Origin: Pomacea canaliculata
Taxonomy: Eukaryota; Mollusca; Gastropoda; Architaenioglossa; Ampullariidae
Assembly (NCBI RefSeq): GCF_003073045.1
Contig: NC_037592.1
Span: 3,337,924 to 3,401,923 of the forward strand
Direction: 5' to 3'
DNA: 64,000 nt
Under the pieces are notes generated by a model that worked only from the letters and a program-made list of their open reading frames with translations, did no database searches and had not been told where the DNA came from. Shown here in pieces: positions 3,878 through 60,494 of this stretch (position 1 is its first letter; each line of letters begins with the position of its first letter). The position numbers and the translations under genes are program-made.

Positions 3878-5310
3878 TTTATGACAAAGACTAAATAGAT
3901 AGCACAGAAACGGTATAGACAGCAGTTTGATCAGTCGTCGCCCCTGCGGTAATCACGTTGATGCAACCCCTTACCTTTCCACAATCTTTACAACATGTAC
4001 ACTCCTCTATTCCAAAAGCAGACAAGCAAGAACATGAAGAATGAAGATCGATGAAAATCTCAAGGAACTTACCTGCAAGTGCGTTCTCAAATTAAACGCC
4101 GAGGTCTTGTTCGTTGAGTACTTCGTGCTGCCGCACCCATTCTTGCATTTGAAACTATATCCACATTTTGTTGCTTCACAAAATGTAAAGAATTTCAAGT
4201 AAGGCTCGAAATTGATGGGTACGTCCATCTTCTTTTTTCAAATCGCTCCCGCCACATGGACGACACAGTACTTGCGGTTACTGAGCGTGCGAGACACGTG
4301 GTGTCTGGCTGTCAACACACCGAGCAGTGAGAACAGTGGCTGTCGTCGTCTTGCTGATACGCTGTCGACGAATGGTCGTGAAAGTAGCCAACATGTAGCC
4401 AAGCTACGGCTACTTTCTAAAATGTAGCTACGGCTACAAGCTACTTTTTTTAATTTGTAGCCGGCTAAGCTACAAGCTACAAAATTTGTAGCCAGCTACA
4501 GTAGCTGTAGCTAGGCTACAGCTACTCCCCATCCCTGAATCTTGATCAGGTGAAGAATGTAATTATTGCCCATCTAAACGGACTGCAAGAAAGGTTTCAG
4601 CATTATTTCGCTGAAATTGATGTGACTAAATACGATTGGATTCGTAATCCATTTCTGGCTGATCCTAGCACAAGCGGGTTGTCCACGCAAGAAGAAGAGC
4701 AGCTCATCGACCTTTCGAGTGACCAATCCCTGAAAATGGTCTTCCAAACAACACCAGTGCCAACATTCTGGATTAGCGTCAACGGTGAATATCCTCTCCT
4801 TTCTGAGAAAGCAATGAAAGTTCTGCTGCCATTTTCAACTTTGTATATGTGTGAGCAAGGATTTTCAGCATTGGCAGCACTGAAGACTAAATACAGAAAT
4901 CGTGTGGACGCAGAGGCTGTGCTGCGAATAGTAGTGGGTACGAACATCGCACACAGGTTCGCTTCTCTATGCAACAGCAAGCAGGCTCAACCTTCTCATT
5001 AATCAAAGTCAGTGTCCAATAAAATAATATTTATTAGCACCGCAGAATTTGCTTTAGTAAAATTTCATTAACAGTTATACTTCTTGCAGATACGAACTTT
5101 GTTCTTCCGTTGTTGAATTGCATTGATTTCCTCGACGCGGCGTTCGAGGTTAGCTAAGGCTCCCCCTCCCCCCCCCCCCCGCTCCTCCACCGACCTAGCT
5201 GGCTAAGGGGGGTCGCGGACGTACCGGTGTTCGTCAGGGGGGTCGTCACATGTAAAAGGTTGAGAACCGCTGACTTAGTCCTCCTCACGACCGCAACAAT
5301 AACTGGAATT

Positions 5311-29500: not shown

Positions 29501-29675
29501 TTAGAGTTATTTATTATTGGATGGAGATTTTTTTTAATCGTTCTCCATCTTTTTCAAGTTGAGGAAAAAAATTGTATTTGTTCATAGGTAGGTTGATTAA
29601 CAGAAAACTTGATTGGACATGAGATTTATTGAAATATCGCAAGCAGGTGTCATTTGAACATCCACAAATTAGGTC

Positions 29676-30965
29676 ATGAATTTGGGGCTGAAAGATGTGA
29701 ACAGCACGGGGCTGGGAGGCGGCATGGAGACCCTGCACGTGCTCACAGACCAGGTGGGCGAAGGAGGAAAGACGGTCCACCCCATCCCTCTGATCTCGGT
29801 GGACCTCAGCCTTCAGATCGTGTGGTTCACCGTGCTGGTCAGCATCTGCTCCATCTTTGGCACTGTCGGCAACATCCTTGTTCTGCTCGTCTACGTGCAG
29901 CGCAACGACAGGCGCACCGCCAACACCTTCATCCGGGTGCTGGCCGTCATCGACCTCGTCGTCTGCGCCATCATCATGCCATACACCATCGTCTACGAGC
30001 TGCACCTGGTGACCTCCGACCTTCTCTGCCGCGCGGTCGAGCTCCTGCGTCACGTGGCCATCACGGCGTCCAACCTGACGATCGTCGCCGTCGCCGTAGA
30101 ACGCTACGTGGCCGTGTGCGTCATACGTCACCGTCTGACGGTCCAGAACGTCAACCACGGCATGATCGTCGTGGTGGTTGGCTCCGTCGTCATCTCCCTC
30201 CCTTCCATCGCCGTATTCGCCGTCGTCAGTGAGGAGGAGGTCAAGGGGTTGCCGTGCTCGCTACCTCATCAGTTCTCGCCCAACTACACCTTCTGCCACT
30301 TCACTCTCACCATCGCGGGCCCAGTCCTCAGCCGCAGCTACCAGGCCGGTCTCATGCTCATCTTCTTTCTCTCCTTCGTCCTCATCCTCTTCTTCTACGC
30401 GCTGGTCTACGTGTCGCTATGGAGACGCTGCAGACGGCGAGCACGGAACTGCGCGAAGGTCGACTCCGACGTCTCTGAGATGGAGAAGAAAGAAAGTTCC
30501 GTGTCATTTCCGGAAGGAATTCAGGACCAGAAAGAACTATTTCTGCAAGACTTGCAGGGCCTGCTGGAGAATGTCAACCAGGGGACAAAATGTTTGATGC
30601 CAGAGCGCGCCACCCGGGAGTCGACCGACCAACCGTTCACATCCTCACCTGCTGGGGCACCGTTCGGCATCTCCGTTGCCAGTGGCAACCGCAGGCAGAG
30701 CCAGTTGTACACGCGAACTGCCCGGATGTTGTTTCTGTGTAGCATCGTCTTTCTGGTCACGTGGCTGCCTTTCTGGGTGGACATATTTGGCTTCACTCAC
30801 AACCTGTGTCTCAGGTACTTGTTTTTCGTGGGCAACGCCTCCAACCCACTGATATACGGACTGGCCAAACTCTCACTTCAGACATTCGTTGATGAAAGTT
30901 TTATCGAAGTACAAACCTCTGTGGTGCATGACATTCAGAAATGGAGTCAAGTGACATCATGTTGA
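29676..30965 (+). CDS. Orphan class A (rhodopsin-like) G protein-coupled receptor
   Basis: A single 429-residue frame with seven hydrophobic helices. Class A landmarks: G65-N66 in helix 1, Asp93 in helix 2, Cys118 at the top of helix 3, E142-R143-Y144 at its cytoplasmic end, W363-L-P in helix 6 and N390-P-L-I-Y394 in helix 7. Asn9 and Asn203 are glycosylation sequons; Cys194 or Cys207 could bond to Cys118. Intracellular loop 3 is long (about 250-345). The helix 3 position where aminergic receptors carry Asp (3.32) is Arg125, so a biogenic amine receptor is unlikely. A peptide-type receptor is plausible; the ligand is unknown. An in-frame TAG two codons upstream supports this start, with Met17 as an alternative. 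Confidence 0.92.
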   Translation: MNLGLKDVNSTGLGGGMETLHVLTDQVGEGGKTVHPIPLISVDLSLQIVWFTVLVSICSIFGTVGNILVLLVYVQRNDRRTANTFIRVLAVIDLVVCAIIMPYTIVYELHLVTSDLLCRAVELLRHVAITASNLTIVAVAVERYVAVCVIRHRLTVQNVNHGMIVVVVGSVVISLPSIAVFAVVSEEEVKGLPCSLPHQFSPNYTFCHFTLTIAGPVLSRSYQAGLMLIFFLSFVLILFFYALVYVSLWRRCRRRARNCAKVDSDVSEMEKKESSVSFPEGIQDQKELFLQDLQGLLENVNQGTKCLMPERATRESTDQPFTSSPAGAPFGISVASGNRRQSQLYTRTARMLFLCSIVFLVTWLPFWVDIFGFTHNLCLRYLFFVGNASNPLIYGLAKLSLQTFVDESFIEVQTSVVHDIQKWSQVTSC

Positions 30966-40234: not shown

Positions 40235-41803
40235 TCAACGAGACCCACAGGTGGGGCACATTCTCACCTGCGTCCCCTTCCACATTTGCCTGGTCACGTG
40301 AATAACCTTGATTGCCTGTCGCTGAGGATGGCGCGGGGAAGCGCTCCCAGATATAGGGTTGAGGTTAGGGGCCCTGACCTGACTATCCACAACTTCAATG
40401 ACCCGGCTACCTCCGGACCTAACAGAATCATCAACCGCTTCGCAGTCCAGTTCCGGTTGACAAACAGGTCTGGCACTTTCTCTGTGACCTGCCTTGTCAC
40501 CAGGGCCAAGCGTGACACCCGATGACACCACAGAGCTAGACTCTTTGTCGAGGTCTGTCACCGCTGTCGTTCTGTGGCTTGAGGTCAAAGGCTGCTCTGA
40601 TGACGTCGCAGGGGCGGCCCTCAGCGGGTCACCTGACGTCACAGAGCCAGGCGAGTGGTCAGCAGTCCTTCCAGACTTCAGCTGCACGTCCTGAGACATC
40701 TCACTGACTGGTGCGACATCTTGCTCATCGCCCACATCTACGACTTCTATTGTCTTCTCACAGTTGTTCTCTACCAGAAGCGAGTCCATTTCTTCAGATT
40801 CTCTGTTGTTCTCGTGCTTGGGTTTTCATGTCGCTTCTTACAAAACCGTTTGATGTAGACAAGCAAACAGGTCAATGAAATCCCCATAAAAAGACCCAAG
40901 AATGTAAATATGACACGTTGCTCCGTCAAAGAATGGGTCGTCTCCTGTAACAATGGAGAAGATGTATTAGTGTCAGGTCCCTTCTCGTGAGGCTGACTTC
41001 TATTGGCACTGTCAGCACTTGTCCCTCTTTCCTTTTCTTCGGGATTCAGGTTTACCTGAACCGTGATGAAGACCTTGTCCTCACCTGTGATATACACAAC
41101 ACTACCACACCGTGTGGGGACTTTGATGCATGCATCCAAACTTAAGATGTGTTCATTCTTTGCGGCGTAGTAAATGTGAGAAAAGTTCAGTGCTGCTATA
41201 TCCGGATGATCTGATGAACAGGTTTCTCTATCACCTGCTACAAACTTCTCTGAGATGTTAACGCTTCCATAGACAAGTGTAGGATTCTGTAAAGCTGGTA
41301 AATTCCAGGTGCCATGGACCCGAAGAACAGGGGTAAAATTTACAGAGAAACCGTCGACACTTTCGTTCTTTTTGATCGTCGATGGCCCGCCAACATAGAA
41401 AGATTGAGATTCTTTTCTTTTCTCATCTCTGAGTCTGTAGGATGTGGTACACGTGTACAGTCCATGTGAGTTCTCGGTCAAAGGGAAGGTCAATATTAAA
41501 AAGGAACTGGAAGCATTCCGTTCAAAAAGTTGTCCTGAAGCATTGTAAGAGGTCGGGAACATACCCAAAGGAAAGATCTTTGTAATGTTCCTGGCGTGAG
41601 ACACTAACGAGACTGTGGGAGAAGTTGTTTCTCCTCGAGAACGAAATTTCAAGTTGATAAAGTTCATTCCATTGAAGAGAGGTTGGCACTTTACAGGTCA
41701 AGTTCATGAGTTGTGTTTCCATCATGCTCATCGGAACAGGTGAATGCTGGGGGATTGTCATACTTGCAACGTATGCTGCAAGAAAAATAACTGCTGGGTT
41801 CAT
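40235..41803 (-). pseudogene. IgSF-like type I membrane receptor, paralogue A (two frame breaks)
   Basis: The start at 41803 gives a signal peptide (MNPAVIFLAAYVASM). An Ig-like domain follows (Cys37; SHGLYTC), then a second cysteine-bearing module, a transmembrane helix (FTFLGLFMGISLTCLLVYI) and a Ser/Thr/acidic tail read to 40235. Paralogues B and C align throughout. The frame changes at about 41547, where one extra T in a CTCTTAC context breaks the conserved VPxLxNASGQ block, and returns near 40835, just inside the membrane. The first and last frames are in register. This may be a young pseudogene or two sequencing indels. A TTTCAG acceptor at 41865 implies an intron in the 5' UTR. No named family is recognised. 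Confidence 0.72.
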
Positions 41804-44699
41804 GGTTTCGAACTAGTGTCTCCTGCCTCCAAAGTCCTCAAAATGTTCTCCAGCAACAACGGAACTGAAACAAAGACCAAATGCAGGTTAGTAGATTGTA
41901 ATGAGTATAATATCAAAATGTTTATGGGGTTGAAAAACTATTTTGTGAAAGTCGTTCGAGTGATTAAACAATAATCAGAAGCGGGAAAAAATTCCCATAC
42001 AGGAAAAATGAATCTGAAGAGTGTAATAAAGTGAATCTGAAAAGTAAATATTCCAACATTCCTGAATGTGCCATTTTCACTGGCACCTGACCAAATACAG
42101 ATCCTAGTTACACCACATGCACTCTAGTGAACCTGGTAGGAAATCTTGTGATGTCCCAACTATATGGGTGTCACGGAGTATAACATCTGTTTCTGTCTTG
42201 GAAAGTTCTAGCAAGTCTATAAGTCTGCAAGTTCTGTAGAGACTACTTGTGTCACAGAGTTGTCTGAGTTTCCTGGGCTTCCACAGTCTTCCCTAGTGTG
42301 TATCATGTCTGTGAAACAGAATGCTGGGACTAAATATGAGGAATTATGGGTATTCCCGGTGCCCACTACTGACAGAAGCGAGTATTCCTCCACCTGTAAC
42401 GACCTTTCTATGACGTCACAGCTATGGCTGCCATTCAGATTTGTGTGCTCGGAAATAAAATTGAAGAAAGGTAAATAGCTCATCTGTTCTGTCAGTAGCG
42501 TAGTTCTTATAACTAAATAGGCTTGTGTATGTATTAAAAGTCGAACAATTAAAACAAATAAACAAATAAGTTGTGTGTGTGTATTCTTTGGTTGGCAAGA
42601 TGCTGTAAAGTTGCTGATAAGAGGTGATGCCACATGGGAAGTAACTGCATTTTTCTTTTCGATAGCAACGAGCGCTTATGTCCCTTGACACGACACTACC
42701 GCTCACCCATCACCTCCATCCCTCACCACCCTTCCCCCCAAAAAAAAAAAAATCTACTTTAATAAGTGAACACTTGTCTATAAATAATCTTCGATGTTTC
42801 TTGTCTGTCTGTGTGTGTATACAAATATTTATATTTTGCACATAAAAATATATTTAAAGTGACATAGTTATAAAAAATGTTCAATAAAATGTACTCAAAT
42901 ATATATAAAAATACTCACCCTACCCTGATGAAATTCCCACGAAGACACGTGCAGTATATTTCTTGTAATAAACTTATTTACTTGTGTACAAGCCCCGAGC
43001 CCGAGGCTATACTTGACATTCACCCAAGAAGTAATGTAAAGACCTCACTCGGGCATGTAGCTGTGTGCATCCTAGGTGGGCACTTGACAGTCACACACCA
43101 GATATCTCGCCAAGTGCTGTGTGGACTGAAAGGTAAAACGACGGGTATTTTATATACACACGTAACCTGATTCAGTTCGGCATTTCCCGCTCTCGTTGTC
43201 ACTGTCGTCAGTTGTCGGGTACAAGGCCAACGTCATTCGTCGTCAAGACGACGAGAACTCAAGTTTACATGCGTAATGAAACGACGACTCGTGTATCTTA
43301 AACTTCCACAAACTTTCTCAAAACCAAGATAGGTAAAAGATCATCAAAAGGAAAATAAAGAAATAGATGTTTACAGTTTCCTTTAACCCACTCAGCCGAA
43401 ACCACGACTCGCGTAAAGTGTGTGTTTTATTATCATTATTATTTCAGGCATTTAATGAATATGAGGTTCTACTTCCTTTAGCACAAATTAAAATATCAGT
43501 TACACTAGTGTATTTATGTACAAATTAATTTCCGTTAATTCCGTTTTATCAATCTATTGTCGCTGGGTAAGTGAACTAGTTTCCGCGTGGTTTTCATGTC
43601 GAAAACAACATTTGCCGAGACTTTCACTACCAATAAATAACATCAACCAGAAACAGGGACACGCTCGACTGGTAGCAGACTAGCTGGGACTTTGGGAGAA
43701 TTCAGAACATTCAGTCCCCAACCGCTAGATAAACAGATAAACGCCTACGTGCAACTGAAAATTAACGTCAGGAATTTATCTTCTAAAAATAGACACTCAA
43801 GGTCTGACGGTGTGGCTTTGAAAGACTTTGTTTTTAATGGGAGAGGAGTGTCACATAGCCTCTCAATCGTTTCCTCTACCGGGTCTACCCCAACTTAGTC
43901 GGGTACAAAATCAACAGCTGCGTGGACTTTGTGAATGAAACAACTCTAATTACTTTCTTTAGGGAGGGTGTGTGTATGTGTGAGAGAGAGAGAGTGTGAG
44001 CACGGGTACGTGTGTGCGTTTGAGTGCGTGTGTGGGGTGGGGTGGCTGACTCCCTGCCGAGATAACCCGATAGGAAGACTAGGCTTTGCTGTCATTATAC
44101 TAGGGATTGCGTGGTTACGTTTATTCCTCGTTATTACCATCAACATCTTCCCGTGGTGAAGACCTAAGAGCGAAAGAAGAATCAACAGAGTGATGGTTGT
44201 CAGCACTACCAGCGCGTGGACCCAGTGGACTGTTGTACTAACCCTCGTGAAAAGTATTTATTTCTGTTTCAACATGCAGCGCGAATGTACCCGATTTAGC
44301 GATTCACAAATAATATTTGTGAGTGAACAGAGATGTCTATATGTGTGATCTTCTGAGTCGGACAATAAAAGCTTCCTGCGCTGGGTAAGGATTTAAGTAC
44401 ACTTTGTGTTTTTACTTCAGTGCAAAATAATAAGTCAGAAAGTTATATGAATGTCATCATTTTGTTCTAGTTAATTTCCTGTAGTTAAACTTTTAATTCA
44501 GTTAAGTAAGCCCAACTGGGAGTGTTTATTTTATTGGTGACGGTACAAACATTATTAGTAATTGTTTTTAGGCGTTTTTCACGATTTTCTCATAAACTGA
44601 AAATTATTTTGTAGGTCAGTGTAATGTCTGTGGTTAGCAGTCGAGTCCAAGTTGTCACACTGACCTCCACACCGTCACCAGCAAACACTTTCTAGTTGT

Positions 44700-44802
44700 A
44701 GACAGCCAACAGGCAGCAGGCAGGAGCAGGAGGCAGCAGGCAGGAGGCAGGAGCAGGAGCAGCAGGCAGCAGGCAGCAGGCAGGAGGAAGGAGGCAGAAG
44801 CC
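44700..44802. repeat. CAGGCAG/CAGGAG minisatellite
   Basis: Irregular tandem array of CAGGCAG, CAGGAG and CAGGAGG units, purine-rich on this strand. Confidence 0.8.
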
Positions 44803-46027
44803 CAAACAACGCAGGGGAGGAAGCAGGTCCGACGCAGGAGGTGAGGTAGTCTGTTAACAGGGTCTCCAAAGGTTAGAAGCGCCCTCGTAGCTAAACCCCG
44901 GGAGGCAAAACGGGAAAATGAGGTCTGAACAAGGTCGCCATCACTGAAGTACAGCAGTGTTCTAAAGTAGTTTATCGCGAGGAGACGGAAGCTGTCACAG
45001 ACACAATGGCAGGGCAGACTTCATGATGAAAACACCCGACACATACCCACGGACCCAGTGTCAACACATACAGCATACCCCACCGGGGGTCGTATAAAAG
45101 CTGCTCGACTTCTCTCCTTGTCTGTTACTTGTAAAGACATTCTTTTCTTCCTTCCTTATAACTCATTCAACCCTCATTTCTAACTGAGCAAGAATAAACC
45201 AAGTATAATGATCACACTAAACTATTTACATAAAAAGAAATACGTACATTCACCGTAATTTATCAACAGATTTGAGCTTTATTGATACTGTTAAAAATCG
45301 TATAATAATTATCAAAAGTACAACATGTAAAAAATAATTTACCTCGATTAGGTAGCAAGGCTCCATTCGGAGTCCGCGGCGTAACAGTCGTTTGCGTTCG
45401 ATGATCGGAGCTCCGAATGTACGACTATACCACAACTCGCACTCTCATGGGTGAACGTAGTAGTTACTTTCTCTAGCACATTCCTTAACCCTTATATTCT
45501 CATGCACACTGCATGTGTGCCCTTGTGTAGAGAACAGAATATCACAGATGGATCCATGACACTGCTCCATAGTCATAGCTTGCAGAGTCTATCTCGAGGA
45601 CTAAGCTTTTTGATGTTTTGACAGTGGTCTTGAGGGGCCTGCAGCTGAGTGCGATGACCTCTGCAGTCCCATAAAAAATGCTTAATACTTCAAAAGCTTG
45701 GCATTTTTATTTAAACTCCAAGGAATAAATTATCACAAGAGCACCACAATTCCATAATGTTTTTGCATAACAATTAAAAATTTATTCACAAAATCCACAT
45801 ACATGCATATATACATACGTCCGAAGGATAGACAGATAAATGCACAAATAAACGAAGAGTTAAAAAAATGGGGCTAGCACGAGTTTTGACAACTGAGTTT
45901 TCTATTCTACTAGAAAAATAATATCTAGTTTCGTCAGGACAACATTTTAAGTTCACTTATGGAGAATAGGAACGAGATATATATATAACTTGCATCCTTA
46001 TCTATCAATCAGACTTACTGACACAAC

Positions 46028-46403
46028 CAGGCCCGCCGAGAGCCAGCACGGGCCCCGGGACAGACAACTACCACCACCTAGGAATTGTAATTGTAAATTA
46101 TTCTCTAATTATACAATTCGATTGTCATTATCGACATTGTCTTCAATAATGTAATATAGACTGCAAACATTAGGACAAGTGCACGAGGATTTACACTACT
46201 ACATGAACACTGACATTAAAGGATCAAACTTGTAGTTCCCCGCTCTATAGAAAACATCCCCAGAGTGAGGAATGTTAAGGAAACCTTTCTTTAGAAGAAG
46301 AGGAAAAGAAGAAAAAATAAATCCACCAAGACCAGGGCCCCCTTCACACCCGAGGGCCCGGTACACCAGAACCCCCCTGTCCCTCCCCCTCTTGTCAGGC
46401 CTG
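46028..46403. mobile_element. 376-bp hAT-type MITE
   Basis: It starts CAGGCCCGCCGAGAG and ends CTCTTGTCAGGCCTG. It is flanked by the 8-bp duplication GACACAAC (46020-46027 and 46404-46411). It is non-coding. The ends resemble, but are not identical to, those of the element at 38934. Confidence 0.88.
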
Positions 46404-47850
46404 GACACAACACAATTTTCCTATGTTCAGTGGAATATGGTTTACAAACCTATGAACACTATTCTGAGGAGTTTTGGTGTCAGTTTGAAGTGGATTGTAA
46501 ATATATTTTGTGTGGACTTTTGTGTCTAAAGCGTAGCATGTGGTAAACAGTCCTGTCCACCTTCACACCAGCCAGCAAGCTACAGTGTTCCTTCCATTCA
46601 GTTTAACAATCACAACTTGGTCTGTAAATAAACTTCACTTTCAGGTGTTGCTTTTTTTTCTTCTTCTTCCCATATGTGTTGATTATACGGGTAGTTTTTC
46701 CTGAAATACTGTAAACAAAACTGGCTGTGCGCCACCATATTATCTAAAATAAAAACGGTCAACACTTTAAAAAAAAGGCGTTTTTTATTTAAAGAAATAG
46801 ATCACAGGAAGCGTACCTTAATTTAATTTCTCTAGGTTTCTAAGTGTCAAATAAAAAATATTGACTGCTCTGAAAACCAGTTTTTGAAGCAGCGCCTGCA
46901 TACGTTACATACACACATCCAGGTGGGTGCACAGACAGGCAAACAGATATACAGAGGACACGAAAAGACCAGAGTATTACCAGATACTATTTTGCTATCA
47001 CGAGAAAAGTAACTTCATCTACTAATAACAAATATCGACATTTAAGTAAATAATTTTGGCTAAGAAAAATGCACAGCCAAAGTGACAGCAGCAGAAACAT
47101 TTGATTATCTTCTCTTAACGTCGATAAATTTTGTAACTTTACCTGTTTTCAGGTTTTTGCTTACAACAGGGCAGAGATTTAAACTCCCATCTTTCTCTCT
47201 TTTCTTGTCACAATACTTTTGTAATAACCAATTAAATATATTTGAAAACAACAGTTTATATATATATTCATGTGTCATAAATATATTTAATTGTATGCGC
47301 ACCTACTGACGCACAGAAAAATAGATGCATAGACAAATATGTATATAATATATATACATCATATATTGTATGAACTTATTTTAAGATAATGTAATAAACA
47401 AAAAATATTGTTTCAAATATAGTTTAGTTCCATGTCACTCGTGTAAAACATTTTAGACAACTGCCAATGCGCACATTTGATCGTGTAACTTAACCCTGTG
47501 GTTGAGTACAGTTTGGTATAATCTGTTGGTTCCATAGTGTGTCCTGGGGTATGACAGCTCTTTTTTATTCTCGACCATTCTCGACCTATTTCATAAAATC
47601 CTTCCTGTCACCTTGTTACAGAATGAATGTGCTCAAAACCAATTTCAACAGACATGCCTGCCACCACTCGTCTACCTGCCCTCGCCGACGACTTATTCAA
47701 GTTATTTGATGTTCGTGTCTTATATCTTGAGATCGAGATTCAAAGATTGGTTTCCTTCTTGGCCACAGAGCCTACGTCCCTGTTGAATACGCCTATATCA
47801 TTAAAATTCTCGCTTGCTTGTTCTGAATGACTATTTCTGTCATTACCCCT

Positions 47851-48576
47851 CATAGGAAAGAAGCTCAACGCGCTCTTGACCACGTGGTCGTCTACGATCC
47901 CTGGACTCTCCTTCAACATTAGTCATTTCCAAATGCTGAGACTGTCCCCAGATGTTATTGTTAGATGTTAACGGGTCGCTAGTTTGTCCCTGACCACTAG
48001 ACACCGTCTGACCACTACCTTGAGCTTGAGCATTGGACAGCGACTGGTTACTAGACTGTCCCTGACCACTAACATTGTCTGATCACTAGGTTGTGTTTGG
48101 CCATTAGTCGCCATCTGACCAGTAGCTTGAGCTTGGCCATTAGTCGCCATCTGACCAGTAGGTTGTGCTTGGCCATTAGTCGCCATCTGACCAGTAGCTT
48201 GAGCTTGGCCATTAGTCGCCATCTGACCAGTAGGTTGTGCTTGGACATTAGTCGCCATCTGACCACTAGGTTGTGCTTGGCCATTAGTCGCCATCTGACC
48301 AGTAGGTTGTGCTTGGACATTAGTCGCCATCTGACCAGTAGGTTGTGCTTGGCCGTTAGACACCGACTGGTTGCTAGATTGTCCCTGATCACCAAACATA
48401 GCACTGATCACTAGATTGCTCCTGACCATTAGATACCATCTGACCACTAGACTGTCCTTGACCATTAGATACCACCTGATTACTAGACTGTCCCAGACGA
48501 TTCGACATCACCGGGCCATCAGAAGTACGTCCATACTGTCTGAATCCTGCTGAATGGGAACACGTGAATAATGTGG
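47851..48576 (-). pseudogene. Decayed membrane helix-to-tail region of paralogue B with 36-bp repeat array
   Basis: Downstream of the B ectodomain the - strand still encodes a Gln-rich tail made of about 7.5 units of NGQAQPTGQMAT (48360 down to about 48085). This is flanked by related GQGQSSNQ and SNGQ units and ends in ERVELLSYEG at about 47851. The units fall in different frames on each side of the core array, so at least two frame changes are present. The 36-bp period leaves other frames open, including long antisense frames that should not be taken as genes. It corresponds to the repetitive cytoplasmic tail of paralogue C. Confidence 0.65.
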
Positions 48577-48696
48577 ACGTCTCTTACTTACCTTATGAAA
48601 CATAAACTCAAACGACAGTAATAGCAAACACAGATTGAAAGTAATAACGAGACAAAAATTAAAGGAATAAGTAGATGTAAGGGATAACTGTTACAT

Positions 48697-49605
48697 TCAG
48701 GACATGCCGAAACTGCCATTGTGTGTGGTAGTATTTTCTTTGATGTTACTCTCAGTACCGATCACTTTCTTTGATGGATCAGTGTTAGAATTTAAGAAGA
48801 CTAAGGCTTCAACAAGTTTAAGGTCTTTTTCGATTTCCACATTAGCTGTATATTTAACACTGCGGCAACTAGAGCCATTGATGATGCACACATCCATCTT
48901 AATTATGTGTTCCTTCTTATTACTGTCATAAAAGTAAGACAAATTATGAGCCAGTACATCAGGATGAACATCACAAGGCTTCCCTTCTTGTATGCAAATT
49001 ATCCAGCAAGGCTTGGAATCTTTCGTTGCAGAATTCTGTAATATGTCTTCTTTAAGCTCAAGTTTTTGCAAAGGTAGATGGGGTAGATACCAAGTCCACT
49101 GCTCTCTAAAAGCAGGAGTAAAGTACCCCGAGAATCCGATAGAGATTATATTTTCCTTGATTGTTGATGGCTCTCCAATAAAAATGTCTAGGGATTCTGT
49201 TTCCTTTTTATTCCCAGTAATGTATTTGAACGTGATCATGCATATATACTGTCCATGTGTGTCGTCATCCAAAACAAAGCTAGCATTTAAAAATGAACTG
49301 GAAGCATCATGTTCAATAACTTGTCCTGTAGCATTGAACAGGGTGGGGACGTCTCCCAAAACAAGTTCTGGAAAATATTGGTCACGTGCCTTATTGACCA
49401 GACTGCGGAGATACCCGCTTTCTGTTCGTCGGAAAATTTCAAGACTAAGAATGTTTTTCTCTCGATACCCGAGTGGGACGTTGCAGGTCAGCGTTGTATA
49501 TTGCACAAGAGGCTTTGTCACGTGTCTCGGCTGCTCTGAATGTTGACCAGACGCCATGATAGCTCCACACGTCACTAATAACACAAGTTCAGGAAGTGAT
49601 GTCAT
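48697..49605 (-). CDS. IgSF-like receptor ectodomain, paralogue B
   Basis: A 302-residue frame with a signal peptide (about 1-20), then an Ig-like domain with Cys41 and Cys122 (THGQYIC, preceded by ASSSFLNASF) and a second module with several Cys (about 205-265). It aligns with A (GEPSTIKEN versus GGPSTIKKN; the TWYLP/TWNLP block) and with C. The frame stops at FGMS. After a TGA and a nearby TAA the same frame continues into a membrane helix (YSFNFCLVITFNLCLLLLSF). So B may now be secreted, or it may be a pseudogene. The TTTTTTTTCAG acceptor at about 49723 places a 5' UTR intron 117 bases upstream, as in A and C. Confidence 0.75.
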   Translation of the reverse strand: MTSLPELVLLVTCGAIMASGQHSEQPRHVTKPLVQYTTLTCNVPLGYREKNILSLEIFRRTESGYLRSLVNKARDQYFPELVLGDVPTLFNATGQVIEHDASSSFLNASFVLDDDTHGQYICMITFKYITGNKKETESLDIFIGEPSTIKENIISIGFSGYFTPAFREQWTWYLPHLPLQKLELKEDILQNSATKDSKPCWIICIQEGKPCDVHPDVLAHNLSYFYDSNKKEHIIKMDVCIINGSSCRSVKYTANVEIEKDLKLVEALVFLNSNTDPSKKVIGTESNIKENTTTHNGSFGMS

Positions 49606-51422
49606 GGCTCTGACGCAGTTTTCACTTTTACGTTTGTTCGGATTCCTCGAGTGTGAAGTTCAAAGGTCGAGCATCTTTTGACCACGCTGCTTAAATATGT
49701 AAACAAGACAGCAACAGTCGGTCTGAAAAAAAACCACACATAAAAGCAAATGTAAAATAATTCAGCAGGTGGCAACAGATTAAATATTTGGATTTCTTTT
49801 TCTGCTTGTATGTACCTAGCGGCTGTGCAGATATAATGACATATAGCAATGTTAAGAAGGGTTAAAGTATGCAGAGTTCGTCCCCCTGAGGTTATAGTTC
49901 ATCTTCAACGTTTGTCTGAGGAAGGCACTTTCTCTTTTATTATGAACATTGTGGCGCGCCACATGAACGAGCGAGATATTTTGCAAATAAAAACTGCCAC
50001 ACATCAAACTTCAGTGAAAACGAAATTTTGGTAGAAAAAAAACGAAAGTTGAAAATCTTCCTTCTCTCCCTTTACTGCTGGCCTTGTGGTTATAATGACT
50101 AGCAAGGAGTTATAAACACACATAAGTAAATAATTAATAAGTAAGGGTAATCAAAGTGGTGTCAGGATGCCTCTTTTATTATTCCTAGCGTTTGACAAAC
50201 TTCAGTGGCCAACAGCTGTAAATGTTTTTGTTTACAGCGGATAAGTACTGTTGTAGTCCCTTACCCGGCTCTACTTATGCCGAAAAGAACACAAAATCAA
50301 CAGGCAAACCCTTGTTGTAAAGAAAGAAATACATTTTTCTATTATACATGTAAGGCATATTTATAAGCAGCATAAGAACATAAACAGATCGGTTAATACC
50401 GGTATACATTTAGATTAGAGGCGAGCCGACACACACACTCACCGGAAGAGAATTCTCCCTCCATGTGTGTGGGGGTCAAAGGTAAATGTAAAGGTACACG
50501 TGTCTTTTAATGCTTTTTAGAAACTGAAAAAATCTGCGATCGCGGCTGTCGAAAGGGGTTTGGAAAAAAAATGAATGTCAGTTTTAAACATTTCTGCCAA
50601 TATATAGCAGGTGTGTCTGCCGTCCTCACTCACCTGAGTGCAGGTGTAAATGTCAAGGTTTTAGTGAACCGCGAAAACCACCTTGCTCATTTAGCTTCAA
50701 GACTTTGTTTTATAATTAACACAATTAAATCAATCGTGACACGATGTCTTGTGTACTTACTTGGCTTTAGAAAATTACTCCCGGGGCCTCTTGGCGCTGA
50801 CAAAAATATTTCGGGGTCTAGCTGGAATCGCAGTAAATCGAAGACCATCAAGCCGGCTTCCTTCCCGACAACCGCTGCACACGATCCTTAATAACAATTA
50901 AAAAATAGGACAAACCGGAGCTTGCGGGAATTCCTGCGTAGTCAAACGGAAATACCTGAAGTTAGAGATAAAATAAGGTCACGGAGGTTGTATTTTCTTT
51001 ATCAATGGGGAGCTTTAGGCTTCATTGACAAAGCAGACGACACGGGAAAAAAGTTTTGATGCAAGCACACAACTATAGGAGGGGGAGGGAGGGGAGGGTT
51101 ACTGCAGTGGTTATCTCTCTTTGTCCCATAAACATGTTTTTACCATCCCCGTTACCAGGTACCGCGAAAAGAAAAGACAACAATCGCATAGTTTGTTGGT
51201 CTCTTTGTTAATTTATAGGCAAATATTCAAGAAATCTTACAATAGGTGCACACACTGCTTGTGATACTCCTCACAATTCTCTTCCCCACCCCGTGAAAAG
51301 CACTCACATAAATCAGATGTAGAAGCCTTTATTTAGTGCTATACCTTACAGACATCAAAGAACTGAGCTTCCAGGAGGGTCTATCTGAAGGTAGCTTACA
51401 AGGACTATATATTCTTAAACTA

Positions 51423-51987
51423 GAGTCAAATCTCCCTACTATGCCACCTACCGGGACCGAGCAAAAGTGGCATAGTAGCGAGAGTGGCATAATACGGAGG
51501 GTTCGTAAAAACGGCTTTATTTGCTCAAGTTACCCGTCAGTCCAAAGCTCTCAAGAATCGTCGGCTTCGCTAGCTGTCTCCTCTCATTCTCCCCCTCACC
51601 TCTTCATCCTCCACCCCTCCCAACCACATCCGCACACCTGCATCCTGTCGCTAGTCGACCCCCTCCTGCTCTCCCTCTGTCACGTGACTGTCACCCGGCC
51701 AGCGACCACCCCCCTCCCCACATCGCCAGCCTCCACCCTCCCTGTGTGCGTGCTATGTTCCATCCACCTAACTGCAATGTCCCACACTACCATACAGTAT
51801 AATAATCGAGCACTGCGCGGAATTTCACAACTTGTGCCTTAACAGTCACACAAAAAGTGGCATAGTAGCGAGAGTAGGTGGCATAGTAAATTTTTTTTTA
51901 CATTGAATTTATAGTCGGGACCGAGCAAAAAAGCATAATACCGAGAGTGGCAGAGTAGCGGGGTGGCATAGTAGGGAGATTTGACTG
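51423..51987. mobile_element. 565-bp pogo/Tigger-type MITE
   Basis: The ends are inverted repeats of CAGTCAAATCTCCCTACTAT (the first base has changed on the left), with TA on both sides (51421-51422 and 51988-51989), as in pogo/Tigger elements. Subterminal copies of GTGGCATAGTAGCGAGAG occur at both ends. The middle (about 51510-51840) is C/T-rich and unlike the ends. No transposase. Confidence 0.85.
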
Positions 51988-52620
51988 TATTCTCATAAAT
52001 CAGCCTTTCCCACTTCGCCAGCTACATGCACCAAACACACAGCTCAGATTTTGTTGTTGCTTTAAAAATATTTTATTTTCTTCCTTTAACTCAATAAAAC
52101 TAAAGCGTGAATTAAGCACGTGTAGAATTATTTTTATTTAATGAACTGTGTGGATATAATGATACCTTTCATTCGCAGAATTACAAAGGTATTTTTTTTT
52201 CTCTTTTTTTTTTTTTTTTGTAAGAGGTCTTTTTGGGGAAAATCTGATTTTATTTTTTTGTGAAGATGACTGGGCAGTTGTTTCACAAACCAAACTCGGC
52301 AACCCATCTGTTTTGCTGCACTTGCTTCTCGCTCAGTGTTTGTATTCTTGATTGTTTGCAAGCTGTTCATTTACTGCTCTTTCTGTCTTGGTGTTCCAAA
52401 GTTTGTGAACTGCCTAATTTATTCTGTTGTTTTGACATTTAAATATTAAAACTATTGTTAATGTTGATATCTCTACATGTTACAAAAGTATATTAGCTCT
52501 CGTGTTTTAATTCTTCAAGTTCAGAGCCTCCAGGCCTTGTCATTCTCCACACTACTGACAGATTAGTGACTAGTCAAAGTTCCTGATGAGACTTCTATCC
52601 ATTGTATCGGTTAGAGAAAA

Positions 52621-52695
52621 GCCTGCTGATGAAGAAGTAAGTAAAAGTACCAGAGCCCCCCAAATTGCCTGCTGGTGAAGATGAATTCTGACGCA
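52621..52695 (-). repeat. Orphan units of the gene C tail minisatellite
   Basis: On the - strand one unit encodes QNSSSPAGNLGGSG, nearly the consensus of the gene C tail; a second, more degraded unit follows. They lie about 740 bases beyond the gene C stop. Confidence 0.6.
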
Positions 52696-53436
52696 TTGAA
52701 GAATTTACTTTCGTCTACTCAAAATAAGATATGAATTCGAGACTGATATCAGTAGATGTTTGTTTTATTTACCAAACATTAGACAAGGTAAGGCGTTTAG
52801 TTTTAACGACTTAAACATGTTTACAAATAAATTTACAGATCTTTTTGATTACATCTCGTCCTCCCCAAAGCATAACAATCCATAACTGAATGTACAAAAT
52901 GTTATCTAAACTCTGTGAAACATATTTCCCCAAAACAATTTATTAAAAACAGTCACAGTATATTTTTGTAAACAGCTCGTGACAGAACCAAACTGCATTT
53001 ATTTTATATGCATAGTCAGCTTTTATATCAAGTCAAAACATGAATAAATAAATACACATCACTTTTATCTACGCGTTTAGCGTGAAAATTTTTTATATTA
53101 AACAATATCAAATTTGTAAACAGTTGTGATGAGCAGTTGCTATAAAGCACAAAGATGCATGAAGTTGAACATATGTAACAGCTATCAAAACAAATGTAAT
53201 TACAAGCACGATGATCGCATAGTCAATGCAATTCAGCTATGAACGGTTTTAAACAATATTGAAACATTCTTGCAGTTTCGTACTCTCTGTCAACACCTGT
53301 AAATAAGAACAGTTGAAGAAAATGTGTACATCGCTGGACATGTGGAAAATGTGACAGATGAGAGACTATTTGGTAGATTTCTATTTCTATGCTCGGAGTA
53401 CAGACTTTTTCACACCTACGGGAGATAACAGCATCG

Positions 53437-55518
53437 TTATTTACGAACTGCATTTATATCAACATCGCCTGATGCCGGTTGCTCACTAACCTGTAGGATA
53501 TCTTCCTGAACTAATGTTAACCCAAGATCAGTCTGATGTGCACCAGAACCTATCTGATCACCTGCTGGTGAAAACGAATTCTGTTGTACCTCAGAACCAA
53601 TCTGACCCCTTGTTGGTGAAGAATTCTGTTCGTCCCCTGAACCAATCTGACCACCTGCTGGTGAAGACGAATTCTGTTGGACCCCAGATCCAGTCTGACC
53701 ACCTGTTGGTGAAGAGTTCTGTTGTGCACCAGAACCTCTCTGATCCCCTTCTGGGGAAGACAAATTCTGTTGGACCCCAGAACCAATCTGACCACCTGCT
53801 GGTGAAGACGAATTCTGTTGGACCCCTGAACCAATCTGACCCCCTGCTGGTGAAGAATTCTGTTGGACCCCAGAACCAATCTGACCCCCTGCTGGTGAAG
53901 ACGAATTCTGTTGGACACCAGATCCAGTCTGACCACCTGCTGGTGAAGACGAATTCTGTTGGACCCCAGGACCAATCTGACCATCTGTTGGTGAAGAGTT
54001 CTGTTGTGCACCAGAACCTCTCTGATCACCTGCTGGTGAAGACGAATTCTGTTGGACCCCAGAACCAATCTGACCCCCTGCTGGTGAAGACGAATTCTGT
54101 TGGACCCCAGATCCAGTCTGACCACCTGCTGGTGAGAACGAATTCTGTTGGACCCCAGGACCAATCTGACCATCTGTTGGTGAAGAGTTCTGTTGTGCAC
54201 CAGAACCTCTCTGACCACCTGCTGGTGAAGACGAATTCTGTTGGACCTCAGGACCAATCTGACCATCTGTTGGTGAAGAGTTCTGTTGTGCACCAGAACC
54301 TCTCTGACCACCTGCTGGTGAAGACGAATTCTGTTGGACCTCAGGACCAATCTGACCACCTGTTGGTGAAGAGTTCTGTTGTGCGCCAGAACCTCGCTGA
54401 TCTCTTCCTGTTGAAGAACTATTGTGCTGATCCCCTACTGATAAAGAATCTTCCTGTTGACCCTGTAGTGAAGAACGCCTTTGTTCACTAAGTAGTGAAG
54501 TTTGTACACCAGACTGACCGTGCTCATCATCATTTGATTCCTGATTAATATTGATTGGGCTCCTCTCGTCCCCGTTCCTATTGTTCATGATATAGTCACG
54601 ACGATTTCGACGACATTGCCGACAAAATATATTTTTTCTAAAAACAAATAATATAACTAAAAATAATATAACTAAAAATAATACTACTATTACTACTGAC
54701 ATCGTTATTTTAAATACAGTACAATCACAGTCTTGAAAAGAAGGTTCGATAGAATTCGTGGGCAGGGTACACGGCTCTCGTGAAAATGACCTCAGGGTGT
54801 ACTCTATGTTAATTACATAGTTCGTGTACTGGGAGGGCTCATCCTCAAAAATGATAAAATCTAAAGTCACGACATCAGAAAAAGACAGATTAGAGTCCGC
54901 CACGACTGGAAATGTAAAGCAATGAGGCTTATCCTTTTCCAGTTTGCAGATGACTAGTTCCTGTCTACAGATTGTATTGTTTTGCATGTAACGACTAATA
55001 GTGACTGTGGACTTTCGTTCCATTTCCCGAAGTCGCCATTCTGCCTTCATCTTGTTTGCTGGCCTGACGTTTGCCCTGAAACCCCTCGACTCCGGGTTTA
55101 CCGAAAGCCCGTCAATTTGTAGGTGAGTCCACTGTTCCTTTGTGCCTTTTCCCTCCGATGGCTCGTATGAGGTAACGCATGAATAATTTCCGTAAAGGTC
55201 TTCGGTTAAAAAAAAGGATGCCATTAAAAAGGATGAGGCTGCATCAGACTCATTAATTTTTCTCTCATAGCGAAACAGGGGAGGAACACCTTCGACTGAA
55301 ATGTTATGATACTCTTCGCGAGGCACATCGAGCAAAAGGCGACGAGAGTGAGATTTAGTGATGTAAAAAAGCTTAAGTGAGAAGAGTTTTGTCAGGCCAA
55401 GATAAGGCGGGGGCTTACAAGTAAAATTTACATAATGAGTGGATGTTGTACTTATATTACTCGTTGCCAACACGCTAGGAAACGTTGCTAGGACAGCGAT
55501 GATGGTCAAGAGTGTCAT
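53437..55518 (-). CDS. IgSF-like type I membrane receptor with repeat tail, paralogue C (intact)
   Basis: 693 residues from the ATG at 55518. Signal peptide 1-18 (MTLLTIIAVLATFPSVLA). Ig-like domain about 25-135 with Cys34 and Cys114 (DLYGNYSC). Second module about 140-262 with paired Cys. Transmembrane helix about 268-293, then a basic stop-transfer stretch with CRQCRRNRR. The cytoplasmic tail holds about 19 units of 15-16 residues (QNSSSPAGGQIGSGVQ type) and ends GDVDINAVRK. An upstream in-frame ATG at 55608 is less likely: a strong TTTCTTTCAG acceptor at 55566 lies between, leaving a 47-base 5' UTR piece. No Tyr-based ITIM or ITAM and no known signalling domain is seen. A surface recognition role is inferred; the family is unrecognised. 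Confidence 0.85.
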   Translation of the reverse strand: MTLLTIIAVLATFPSVLATSNISTTSTHYVNFTCKPPPYLGLTKLFSLKLFYITKSHSRRLLLDVPREEYHNISVEGVPPLFRYERKINESDAASSFLMASFFLTEDLYGNYSCVTSYEPSEGKGTKEQWTHLQIDGLSVNPESRGFRANVRPANKMKAEWRLREMERKSTVTISRYMQNNTICRQELVICKLEKDKPHCFTFPVVADSNLSFSDVVTLDFIIFEDEPSQYTNYVINIEYTLRSFSREPCTLPTNSIEPSFQDCDCTVFKITMSVVIVVLFLVILFLVILFVFRKNIFCRQCRRNRRDYIMNNRNGDERSPININQESNDDEHGQSGVQTSLLSEQRRSSLQGQQEDSLSVGDQHNSSSTGRDQRGSGAQQNSSPTGGQIGPEVQQNSSSPAGGQRGSGAQQNSSPTDGQIGPEVQQNSSSPAGGQRGSGAQQNSSPTDGQIGPGVQQNSFSPAGGQTGSGVQQNSSSPAGGQIGSGVQQNSSSPAGDQRGSGAQQNSSPTDGQIGPGVQQNSSSPAGGQTGSGVQQNSSSPAGGQIGSGVQQNSSPAGGQIGSGVQQNSSSPAGGQIGSGVQQNLSSPEGDQRGSGAQQNSSPTGGQTGSGVQQNSSSPAGGQIGSGDEQNSSPTRGQIGSEVQQNSFSPAGDQIGSGAHQTDLGLTLVQEDILQVSEQPASGDVDINAVRK
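53530..54415 (-). repeat. 45/48-bp coding minisatellite in the tail of gene C
   Basis: About 19 tandem units of 45 or 48 bases, differing by one Ser codon. Units alternate between two classes (SSPTDGQIGP and SSSPAGGQRGSG), and a block of four units appears twice, so a higher-order repeat is present. All units are multiples of three. Two other frames, one of them antisense, also stay open for over 260 codons by repeat structure alone. Confidence 0.92.
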
Positions 55519-58500
55519 TGTCCTGCACCTCCTACTCTGAGGCCAGCGAAGGATGGATGAAATGTCTGAAAGAAACAAGAATGCACAGAACATCAAACAT
55601 TTCATCATAGTTTAATACCGCAAGAGATTTGTTTTGACCTGTATAGCATTTTAAATGGACTTTTTTCTTCTGTTCTGTCGTTGTAAACTTTGCCAGGAAA
55701 ATGTCACGTGACAAGCAACAGTTTTTATTCATACGACCACCCATCCACCCACACATACGTCAGCATACTTCAGCATATAAGTATTAACAAAGCTAATTAC
55801 ATTAGGAACATATCACCTATATCTAATTACATTATTAAAAGATCTAATACTTTTTAGCTAATGATATTAACATATCTAATGTCTTAACACATATCTTAAT
55901 GTCTTTGGCCGGGGAGACCCATGTGCAGCTTTGGGTGGTGGATTGTATTGGCTATGATGAGACGATGGCTCTTTACAAACACTTGGGTGTATGTCAGTAG
56001 TGATAAAAGGCAAATGTTCCTCCTGTTTCTGCTCCCCTAGCAGCACAGAAAGCCTAAAAGACAAGAGTCCCAAAACTTTTCCCAAGATAGCCTTCAAAAT
56101 TTCTGTTCTACCTCTTAATTGTGTTCTCCTTGTTTTCCAGTGGTCATTAGAGCTTAGGCCTGGACAAGGATTATGTTGTGAGACCTTGCAAGATGCGGAT
56201 GAATATGAATCTGCTTGAAAAGGAGGTGGAGCTGATGTCGGCTGCCACAACTTCCTTGCGCAGAAAGTGGTCTGACCCTCAGTGCCAGAGATTGTGAACT
56301 TTATCCTCCTTGTTTTCACCATCAGGTTTTTATCAACTTAAAGGTGGGCTTAGTCCTATTAATTCTCAAATTAAGGAGGTTTTGAGAGATTTTCTAAATA
56401 ACATGTGATTAAAGCCTAATCCCTGCACTGACAGGATATTTTGCCCAGAACCACAACAGCCTTAGCATAACTTCTAGACAGAGTTTGTAATGTAATCTAA
56501 AAGAAAGTGTGAAACTATCACCACAGAAGAAATTCTCCAGTTATATAATACAAAGTATGTACTTGTCATTGCATCAAACTGAACATTGATTTGTTGGTGG
56601 CAGTTCAGTTTAGGGGAAACATTTCCATCCCAAAAGCCTCTCTGTTCACACCCCTCACAGCCATGAATAACCAGAATAAGACTTGCTTTACAAAAACACG
56701 AACAGATGCATTGCAAATAAATTGCAGTTTAATTTGTACAATCTGAGAGCAGATAAAACATGGCAATTTAATTTGTATTATCTGACAGCTACCTTCGAGC
56801 AAAGTCTTAACATCTTCTGGCTTTTTCTCCCTACAATACAAACTGTCTGATAACATTAACATGATCTCTTTCTAAAGGACTACATATTGTCCCAAGAATA
56901 GGCCAAACTGTTTACAATTTGAGTGAAAAAGTGGCAGATCATCAGTGTTCACTTTTAGTCTGTGCTGCTACGGTAGTAAATATTTTTTAACACTTTCCTT
57001 AGGAGAGTATGTGCTTTAGAAATTTTGCATTTAATTTATTATTATTATTATTATTTTCGTTGCTAAAAAAGCACACCATCATCAAGACTAAACTGAATAT
57101 GTGGGCTTAATGCTGCATTTTCTCATAAAAACATGAATCTAACTGCAAGCCAGAGCTAAAACATGACACATAACCGAGTAAAGTCATATGTGCATATAAT
57201 TTTACATATTAATGCGACTCTGAACCACTGCAAGGAAGAGAACTCGCATAAATTTTCTTGTGGAGGAGTAGCTTCCCTTGAACTGACCGGTCGGTGAGAG
57301 AGACGTGTACATTGTACATTGTACAAGCTATAGTGACCTTCCCAGTAGTCATGACTACCGTCCTTCAATACTACAGACCTCACGATCGAAGACCGCGTTG
57401 TGTTTGGAAAGTTGATGACATCACCAAAAAAAAGTGAGAAATTATCATCAACCGGTATTTTTCTAACCCTGACTTCACTTGAATTACTTATCTTTAGGTA
57501 AATAAAACATGTAAACTGTAAATTTTTATTTGAAAAACTTACAAGTGTGTCGATCTCCCACTCACGGCGTGTACCTGGATCATTTAAAACCCGGCACTGT
57601 AAAGGTGTGAAAACCGAAAGGTGTGCCTGTTGTCACCACACAGGTGTCGGTGTTTGGCTTCCATACCTCGTGTACATCTGTGACCGGTTGTACACCCGAG
57701 GTAAATAATCCGTGTCGCACAATGGTTGGCGTACTTTCTGCGGCTGCAAGGAATTACTGTGGTCAGTGGATTGCCTGTAAATCCAACTTTATTTTGCGAG
57801 AATCTTTAAGCTACCAGGGCGGTGGCCACACCTGTCGTGAGGTGAATTTCCCGCTGAACTACCTAACACCACAGTCGAAGTCTTGCACGCTGGGAAAATC
57901 GGAAATGAATACAATGAATGGATTATTCAGTGGCGTAGGAATCTGAGGCAGCCACCCTCAAAAAAAAAAAAAATCTGAGAGGGTAAGAATACCGCACCTC
58001 CACCTCGCTGGGATTCTTCACAAAGTATAAAAAATAATAGAGGAACTGAGAGAGAGAGAAAGGACAATATGTACGAGGGTAAGAGAATAAGCATTTTTTT
58101 AAACATCTAGCCTTGATCTGAAGAATGGAAAAAACATTTCTACAAAATAAAGACATTAATCAAAGAATATATGGGATTTTGGCATACTGACTTGCAAACC
58201 TTCAATGTGATTAATATTATAAAGTTTCTCTCATTTCTTGTCATTGCGATGACTGGGTGGGTCATTTTTAATGAGGTTTTTTTTTTTTTTGTTAAATATT
58301 GCTTTGTCGTTTAACACTGAAGGTATATATTGTGATGTTACCATATGTACACGTGTGTGTGTGCGTGCACTCTCGCACCTCTTTTGTGTGTGTGTGTGTG
58401 TGTAATATGCGAGTGCGAATGTCGTTCGCTGTTTTCAGAAAGCGAATATCTGCAGGCCTGGTTACCATCGGTGGAATTACTAACTCACTTTACTGGAGAA

Positions 58501-58907
58501 CAAATCAAGAAGTCTACTATAAAGGACTCAGTCAATAACTGTTGTTAATTTAAAAATCAACGCTTGGCACCTTTTGATGTTAATATTAAAAATTTAACTT
58601 TAAAAAATCAAATATTCAAAACTAGAAATATAAAAAGCATATTATTTACACAAATGCAGGATTTTTAAAATACAGAAGATACTGCCCATACATTTTCCCC
58701 ATGCAATGGGACTTTCAGACACTTCAAAAGTTTGATGCTTTGACCCTTTGTCCAGTTAAGAACAAGCTTAACCAGCGTCTTTCTTTAGTTGTTTAGTTTT
58801 TAGGGAAAAGAACCCGCCATTCATCAATCATAACTTGTTCGTGGATGCAGGTTGGAAAGGAAGAAGGAGGGGATTAGGAAAAAAACAAGTATACAGCTCC
58901 CCTGTCC

Positions 58908-59096
58908 ATGTATCATGGTTCAACAAACACAAACATGTATCATGGTTCAACCAACACAAACATGTATCATGGTTCAACAAACACAAACATGTATCATGGT
59001 TCAACAAACACAAACATGTATCATGGTTCAACAAACACAAACATGTATCATGGTTCAACAAACACAAACATGTATCATGGTTCAACAAACATAAAC
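58908..59096. repeat. 27-bp minisatellite, seven near-perfect copies
   Basis: The unit ATGTATCATGGTTCAACAAA plus CACAAAC repeats seven times with only single-base changes. The period is a multiple of three, so MYHGSTNTN-like frames stay open on both strands, but no gene context is visible. Confidence 0.95.
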
Positions 59097-60494
59097 AACG
59101 CCCACTGTACTCCAGCAGCTCCAACAAGCACTCTACCTTCTACTACGTAGTAGTCTTTCATCAGATAGCCTCGAAACATTTGGGGAAGCGCCATCTGGCA
59201 GCATAAACATAAACACACCCTTAGGTCAATATGGTGTCTGTGAGGGTGCTTCCAGGAAAGGGATCCTGCTTTAGTTTGTTCGTAATAACACCGGAACAAA
59301 GAACCCAGAGCGCTGGAAATATAGTTCACTCGGGAAATTTTGTTTTATTTGAATATTTGATTATTTGTTTAGTCAGTCTTTTAGACGATTACCCCAGAAT
59401 ATGTCACACAGACTACGGTGTGGAGCGGAGAGGTCGTCCCGTAGCGAGTCACGTTCTCAGTGACGTCACAACGTAGAAGAGGACGGCGCGAGGCTGAGGT
59501 CAACGGAGTATAGTTCACAGTTATTTGAAGACGCACATGGCATCTGTGCCACGTGATGTACACCGATATAAACATCTCAGGCTGGGTTTTTCTCCCTGGT
59601 TTGTTTATTTGTCTGCTTTTCTCGAGCCGGCGACTTGATGACGCCACGACAAAGCTCCAGATGCTCGTTCACTCGTGTTGCGATCCGTTGACCTGGCGTG
59701 AGGACACGTGACGACCCCGCAGAGTTAATCGCCTTGGATGTTAAAGATCTAGTAGGGCGAAATTTATGTCTAATGACTGAATGAAGCTCACAGCAAGGTA
59801 CACTTATCCAACGTTTGATTGAATGCTACTCCCACCTTAAGAAACACTATAAACATTCCCATTCACAGCAAGGGGTCAGACTCATGGTTCACATTTCCAC
59901 AGATAACACCTAATTAACTAATGATAACAACTCTTCCATTGGCTGTAACAGAACCAACTATGTATCTCGAGAACGGATGAAGGATATTCATGCAGATTCT
60001 AAGAAATGGAACCTCTCACTGAGCTTTATTCAAACATGAAGGGAAACAATTTGCACCCCACGTGTCCTTTAAGCTCAGACCTTTGTTTTACTGTTTTGTT
60101 TACTTTGCTGACAGGCTTAGTGACGTCACGTAGCATATCCTGTCTGCTCATTGACCTGCCGTTGGGACAGTATGTGACACCGTGAGTCGTTCAGATGAAT
60201 TTTTGTGTTTTATTACGAACTTAACGTCAATTACCGATGTTGACATTTGCCCTCGATACCAACTGCTGACGCACGTCCTCGCAGATGATTGGCTGTGGCA
60301 TGATGTATGATGAGCTTAGTCCACCCGCGCGTGGAGACGCTGGCTGATGGCTGGCGGGTGTAAGCAAGATTCAAGGATCTCTAATGGCCCTCGGTGAATA
60401 TCAGGGCGGTAAATATCAGAACAGCCTTCTTCCTCCTTCACTTTCTCGCACACCCCCATCACTCCTTCCTCTCCCCTACACACACCCCTCATCA

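Follow-up and report, generated by a model that had tools for sequence, protein, structure and literature searches.

Organization of the locus

A window of 64,000 nucleotides from the gastropod Pomacea canaliculata (contig C3, NC_037592.1; C3:3337924-3401923) contains three homologous genes, here termed A, B, and C. All three are on the minus strand and lie within ~15 kb. Their ATG codons are at 55518 (C), 49605 (B), and 41803 (A), counted, like all positions below that carry no contig name, from the first base of the window. The genome searched is composed of 440,159,624 bases in 24 contigs. A first-pass annotation, made from the letters of the sequence, had described the genes as a tandem cluster of an unrecognised receptor family resembling the immunoglobulin superfamily (IgSF). 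This observation is partly confirmed; it is correct at its core and overstated in details. The reading that we favor, with a probability of about 60%, is a small family of single-pass surface proteins that arose by tandem duplication long ago, with C as the working copy.

The relationship between the genes is supported by BLASTP and by genome queries. B and A are 33% identical (71/214, E 9e-34), with the N-terminus aligned at 30% (25/83, E 4e-10), and B and C are 26% identical (67/253, E 2e-19); these E-values are those of single comparisons. With B as the query against the whole genome, the E-values are 3.2e-27 for A and 1.1e-12 for C. Queries with C, B, and A each recover just these three genes at E<=1. 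The three minus-strand paralogs of the first-pass annotation are thus borne out, the common ASSSFL-type and G.Y.C blocks are present in the copies, and the low identity of the ectodomains (26-33% in BLASTP) was correctly noted.

No further copy was detected with C, B, A, or B domain 1 as genome queries, each of which had few first-look candidates scored (4 to 6 for C, B, and A; 3 to 6 with B domain 1 included), so that distant copies could escape. When the window and its 100-kb flanks were scanned with a profile, no extra copy scored above threshold, the next best line being at E 0.69. Tail repeats are likewise confined to the locus when used as genome probes with <=2 mismatches: 11 of 11 matches to the C repeat unit and 7 of 7 matches to the B unit are found here. 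Since the genome queries and the flank scan give three copies only, no expanded locus is seen. No published account of the locus was found among the titles and abstract openings listed by a largely open-access literature search on Pomacea immunoglobulin or haemocytes and on mollusc single-pass proteins with immunoglobulin (Ig)-like domains.

Gene C

C is a single open frame with a hydrophobic start, two extracellular domains, a membrane helix, and a long tail (Table 1). Approximately 272 residues precede the helix and ~400 follow it, and the ectodomain makes up ~39% of the protein. Seven N-glycosylation sequons are located within residues 1-262. The cysteines of domain 2 are at positions 184, 191, 200, and 250. 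The helix is followed by a basic stretch with cysteines and then by the tail of ~400 residues, which past residue 310 is composed of 19% Ser, 19% Gly, and 17% Gln. A single Tyr is present past residue 290, in the context RRDYIMNN. Immunoreceptor tyrosine-based inhibitory (ITIM) and activation (ITAM) motifs, taken in their usual definitions, are absent from this region.

Among the tail repeat units, the ratio of nonsynonymous to synonymous proportions of differences (pN/pS) is 0.43 in frame versus 1.40 and 0.60 in the two shifted frames, the shifted controls being based on the 16-residue units only. The count used 18 of 19 repeat sites, and the last, incomplete one was left out. These ratios argue, modestly, that the frame of C matters. 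Over most of the repeat tail, stops are also lacking in two other frames, and the repeat period is a multiple of three; the open tail is therefore weak evidence by itself. A piece of the same repeat lies past the stop codon (Table 1) and may be left over from a longer tail or from a further copy. The arrangement of signal peptide, Ig domain, cysteine module, helix, and tail in a single exon, which had been given to all three genes, occupies one open frame only in C.

Genes A and B

The frames of A and B are interrupted. The reading frame of A goes from 1 to 0 and back to 1, with switches between ~41577 and 41555 and then near 40825. All three pieces are long and open, and the tail piece has no Pfam match. 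A probably represents a defective copy or allele.

In B, two stops are located immediately before the membrane region, and the helix-like, juxtamembrane, and tail parts are in differing frames. The region of the helix is hydrophobic in two of the three frames, either of which could be the true one. Repeats readily accumulate insertions and deletions. The 906 bases of the B ectodomain are undisturbed, versus several disruptions in the next ~860 bases. This contrast leaves room for B as a secreted ectodomain, which it perhaps encodes.

Passages of the genome paper describe an assembly of PacBio reads from one heterozygous snail, polished with Illumina reads (PMC6129957). Broken alleles or leftover insertions and deletions are therefore possible in A and B. 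A and B have a juxtamembrane ..MD(S/V)LL.. stretch in common (by eye), and the tails of B and C are both tandem repeats; describing the tails as entirely different was too strong.

Domain 1

Domain 1 is most likely an Ig domain of the V type, judged from profile comparisons. A profile of domain 1 aligned by hhalign with three V-set exons of chromosome 7 at 87.5% (E 3.6e-6, 103 columns, 17% identity), versus 0.04% with the reversed profile. The three reference exons all pass the Pfam V-set cut-off and represent three of five places at C7:8.93-9.52 Mb. When the exons were pooled with 6310 open reading frames (ORFs) and scored with a family hidden Markov model (HMM), they ranked 1 to 3 (E 4.8e-4, 7.2e-3, and 0.037), and the best other ORF was at E 0.89. 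Against the PDB at E<=10, the domain 1 profile had four matches, all of them IgSF chains: FcRL5 (0.0071, added up over multiple weak stretches), an antibody light chain (0.078), and NEGR1 twice (7.9 and 9.5). The reversed profile had no match in the PDB, and reversed pieces had none in Pfam. The three sub-cut-off Pfam lines of an A piece are all of Ig type: ig (E 0.067), Sp38 (0.099), and V-set_CD47 (0.14).

Several results weigh against this assignment. None of the proteins and pieces of A, B, and C passes a Pfam Ig cut-off. Of the 28 places listed when the whole genome was searched with Pfam V-set, 13 are on chromosome 7, and the present locus is not included; it is also absent at E<=1 when a V-set exon is the genome query. 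In the reciprocal search of window and flank ORFs with the V-set HMM, the B frame comes first at an E of only 0.51. A phmmer search of the PDB with only B domain 1 has no match, and the usual strand-C tryptophan is absent (by eye). The match to six I-set domains of the genome (six of the eight loci listed) is weak at 2.3%, where V-set versus I-set gives 27.8% as a yardstick.

The lack of an above-cut-off Pfam match is a sensitivity limit and not an excluding feature. It also fits the description of the family as unrecognised. Domain 1 could instead be some other cysteine-bridged beta domain that resembles Ig by chance, as the unreached cut-off and the absent tryptophan would allow; the PDB matches, the pooled HMM ranking, and the hhalign result, with their reversed controls, argue against this, and it is very improbable. 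The same evidence lends support to the IgSF-like part of the first-pass annotation.

The reference exons belong to a tandem V-set exon cluster at C7:8934583-9523395, where 19 of 20 matches of one exon (two overlap) are located within 590 kb. These matches are 33-83% identical to the query exon, itself excluded, and 7 of 19 have an internal stop. No fibrinogen or C-type lectin match is present in this interval among the matches listed.

Domain 2

Domain 2 is homologous across the copies, and, unlike in the layout described earlier, its cysteines are only partly shared. No PDB chain matched it, and Pfam gave chance-level lines only. A second Ig domain was considered and rejected, with hhalign at 0.2% for I-set, 0.1% for V-set, and 1.4% for domain 1, and with no PDB match. 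Domain 2 is without a supported fold, a point against the favored reading. It has no relative in Pfam or the PDB at the sensitivity used, and its structure would be informative.

Upstream of the start codons

An intron directly 5' of each start codon, as proposed earlier, is plausible, though unproven. A scan for AG after a pyrimidine-rich stretch finds an acceptor-like site before all three genes (Table 1), with second candidates 211 bases before the ATG of A and 19 bases before that of C. Approximately 1.35 kb upstream of the A ATG, TATATAAAA is located at 43148-43156 (minus strand), and a donor-like GGTGAGT is near 42916 (by eye). These two elements are possible marks of the promoter and first exon of A.

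Age, selection, and conversion

Synonymous differences between the copies (pS 0.65-0.87) are at or near saturation. The copies are therefore old, and their low identity requires no special explanation. The earlier description of the family as fast-diverging is not borne out. For A and B, pN/pS is 0.62 versus a mean of 0.73 in codon-shuffled controls, and 5 of 200 shuffles were as low; for C and B, it is 0.62 versus 0.72. The controls nearly equal the A-B ratio, so a pN below pS is no proof of present selection on A and B, and the comparison argues neither for nor against it. Within domain 1, 25 codons of A and B have a pS of 0.29 versus 0.71 in the other 173 codons. Gene conversion between A and B is a mere suggestion here, because BLAST had already drawn attention to the stretch when it was picked.

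Proposed function and alternative readings

The best-supported statement is structural: C appears to be a type I membrane glycoprotein with a V-type Ig domain. The sequence supports a layout of hydrophobic start, V-type Ig domain with sequons, domain 2, one helix, and a basic juxtamembrane stretch. Such a protein would be located at the plasma membrane, and its V-type domain would bind a protein or glycan on another cell, particle, or pathogen. The low-complexity tail would work by spacing or by scaffolding multivalent assemblies, and not by tyrosine phosphorylation. The B ectodomain frame, if expressed, would yield a secreted product. A perhaps snail-restricted family that combined, in one exon, a V-type Ig domain related to the large clustered V-set family with domain 2 and a multivalent Gln/Ser/Gly repeat tail, and in which C is anchored and B is its soluble partner or decoy, would extend this scheme and is quite improbable. 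A viral origin of the intronless Ig-like gene was also considered and is not supported; scans against viral contigs, which detect close relatives only, gave five pattern stretches for B, none of them confirmed, and none for C.

By analogy with other mollusc systems, A, B, and C may be immune or allorecognition receptors, with a V-type domain that recognizes foreign tissue or infectious agents (parasites or microbes) and with selection driving turnover of the locus. The domain type and the tandem copies, some of them broken, are consistent with this. The IgSF domains of snail FREPs are described as V-type in passages of PMC7588048, and passages of PMC7494358, PMC11426442, and PMC4361660 link schistosome resistance of Biomphalaria to clustered single-pass proteins. 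Passages of a P. canaliculata population study report balancing selection on immune genes and do not mention this locus (PMC11417965). However, three copies only were detected in the genome queries and the 100-kb flanks, and the synonymous saturation gives no sign of recent expansion. An immune role is a tentative reading, on the unlikely side. Gamete, developmental, or neural adhesion proteins would have the same surface anatomy with a self ligand, and anatomy fails to separate the two roles; the Sp38 line of the A piece, a sperm zona-binding Ig family, is weak and well below cut-off. An adhesion role is rather unlikely.

Other readings concern the state of the genes. The family may be dying, with A and B as pseudogenes, C as the last copy, and a cluster of no notable present role. 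The two frame changes of A, the stops and several frame changes of B, and the orphan repeat piece beyond C are in line with such decay; on the other side, the 302-codon frame of B and the long pieces of A are still open, and C is intact. This reading is a real possibility, at less than even odds. The frame changes could also be assembly errors or one broken haplotype, with all three genes whole in most snails. The PacBio assembly of one heterozygous snail, in the passages cited above (PMC6129957), the repetitive tail of B, and the open sequence on both sides of each frame change in A would allow this. The Illumina polishing reported in the same passages and the error-free C, despite its longer repeat tail, argue against it, and this reading is unlikely.

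The favored reading remains the small, old family with C as its working copy. As it stands, this is a small and fairly ordinary new IgSF family. Should C turn out to be a receptor of haemocytes or barrier cells, it would represent a molluscan recognition protein that is so far uncharacterised, in a snail that passages of the literature describe as an invasive pest (PMC6129957) and as a host of Angiostrongylus cantonensis (PMC6187997).

Coordinates and surroundings

Table 1. Predicted features of genes A, B, and C, in window positions.
Feature	Position	Strand	Basis
Gene A piece 1: start, signal peptide, first half of domain 1	41555..41803	-	frame and BLASTP evidence
Gene A piece 2, other frame: remainder of domain 1, domain 2, helix (~40849-40917)	40771..41577	-	
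Gene A piece 3, first frame again: non-repetitive tail	40235..40825	-	open frame
Acceptor-like AG, 62 bases before A ATG	41865..41866	-	scan for AG after pyrimidine-rich stretch
Gene B ectodomain frame, 302 codons + stop, ends before helix	48697..49605	-	open frame
Remnants, spread over several frames, of the B helix, juxtamembrane region, and repeat tail	47838..48696	-	
Acceptor-like AG, 118 bases before B ATG	49723..49724	-	same scan
Gene C intact coding exon, 693 residues + stop	53437..55518	-	single open frame
C signal peptide, ~residues 1-18	55465..55518	-	hydrophobic start; cut site by eye
C domain 1, V-type Ig-like, ~residues 25-137, Cys34 and Cys114	55108..55446	-	profile evidence
C domain 2, no recognised fold, ~residues 140-262	54733..55101	-	homology between copies
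C membrane helix, ~residues 273-293	54640..54702	-	hydropathy; ends by eye
C tail repeats, 18 full units of 15 or 16 residues	53557..54399	-	repeat analysis
Orphan piece of C tail repeat, ~750 bases past C stop	52668..52690	-	repeat-probe match
Acceptor-like AG, 48 bases before C ATG	55566..55567	-	same scan

Several other frames of note in the window are on the plus strand. A single-frame rhodopsin-type G protein-coupled receptor is located at 29673-30962 (7tm_1, E 5.6e-29), and a frame with a partial RhoGEF domain is at 10694-11077 (E 8.4e-11). Remnants of a hAT transposase, matched in its dimerisation region at E 3.6e-5, are at 4511-4999, and retroelement-like RNase H remains (E 6.1e-5, just under the Pfam cut-off) are at 20881-21741. 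An open frame with the tandem repeat NKHKHVSWF is at 58772-59203.

Fibrinogen-domain exon clusters are found elsewhere in the genome, at C7:20.3-29.1 Mb and C14:1.27-1.34 Mb, some with internal stops among the matches listed. In 19 kb beside chromosome-7 fibrinogen exons, there was no Ig motif and no profile match, a result that speaks neither for nor against a relation to FREPs.

Comparison with known systems

CREPs and VIgLs have a lectin domain behind the IgSF domain. Neither a fibrinogen nor a lectin domain has a Pfam match in the scanned pieces of A, B, and C. Membrane layout likens the family to the Alr proteins of Hydractinia. In passages of the review PMC11999971, the Alr proteins belong to an allorecognition complex and have Ig domains of the V-set and I-set kinds; compared by description, they differ in forming a 41-gene family, versus three copies here, and in belonging to another phylum. 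Oyster CgIgIT2 and the ITIM/ITAM Ig receptors resemble C in having outer Ig domains and a membrane helix (passages of PMC11999971). CgIgIT2 differs by its five Ig domains, according to the same source, and the ITIM/ITAM receptors differ from C, whose tail has one Tyr and neither motif.

The FREPs of Biomphalaria are alike in their N-terminal V-type IgSF domain, and two of them are single-exon genes; compared by description, they differ in being secreted with a fibrinogen domain (passages of PMC7588048). The proteins of the Guadeloupe Resistance Complex and of PTC2 in Biomphalaria are clustered and cross the membrane once, and more than 50 residues flank the helix on each side, as in C (passages of PMC4361660). 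Most Guadeloupe Resistance Complex proteins, again by description in those passages, contain fibronectin III domains, and their genes span ~10 kb and more. An ectodomain of over half of the protein is also part of that definition, and C, at ~39%, falls outside it.

Within P. canaliculata, the comparison is with the chromosome-7 V-set exons, with which domain 1 aligns from its first to beyond its second cysteine. These exons differ in sequence (the 17% identity given above) and are far more numerous. A diversified Ig locus is more plausibly sought in their cluster than in A, B, and C.

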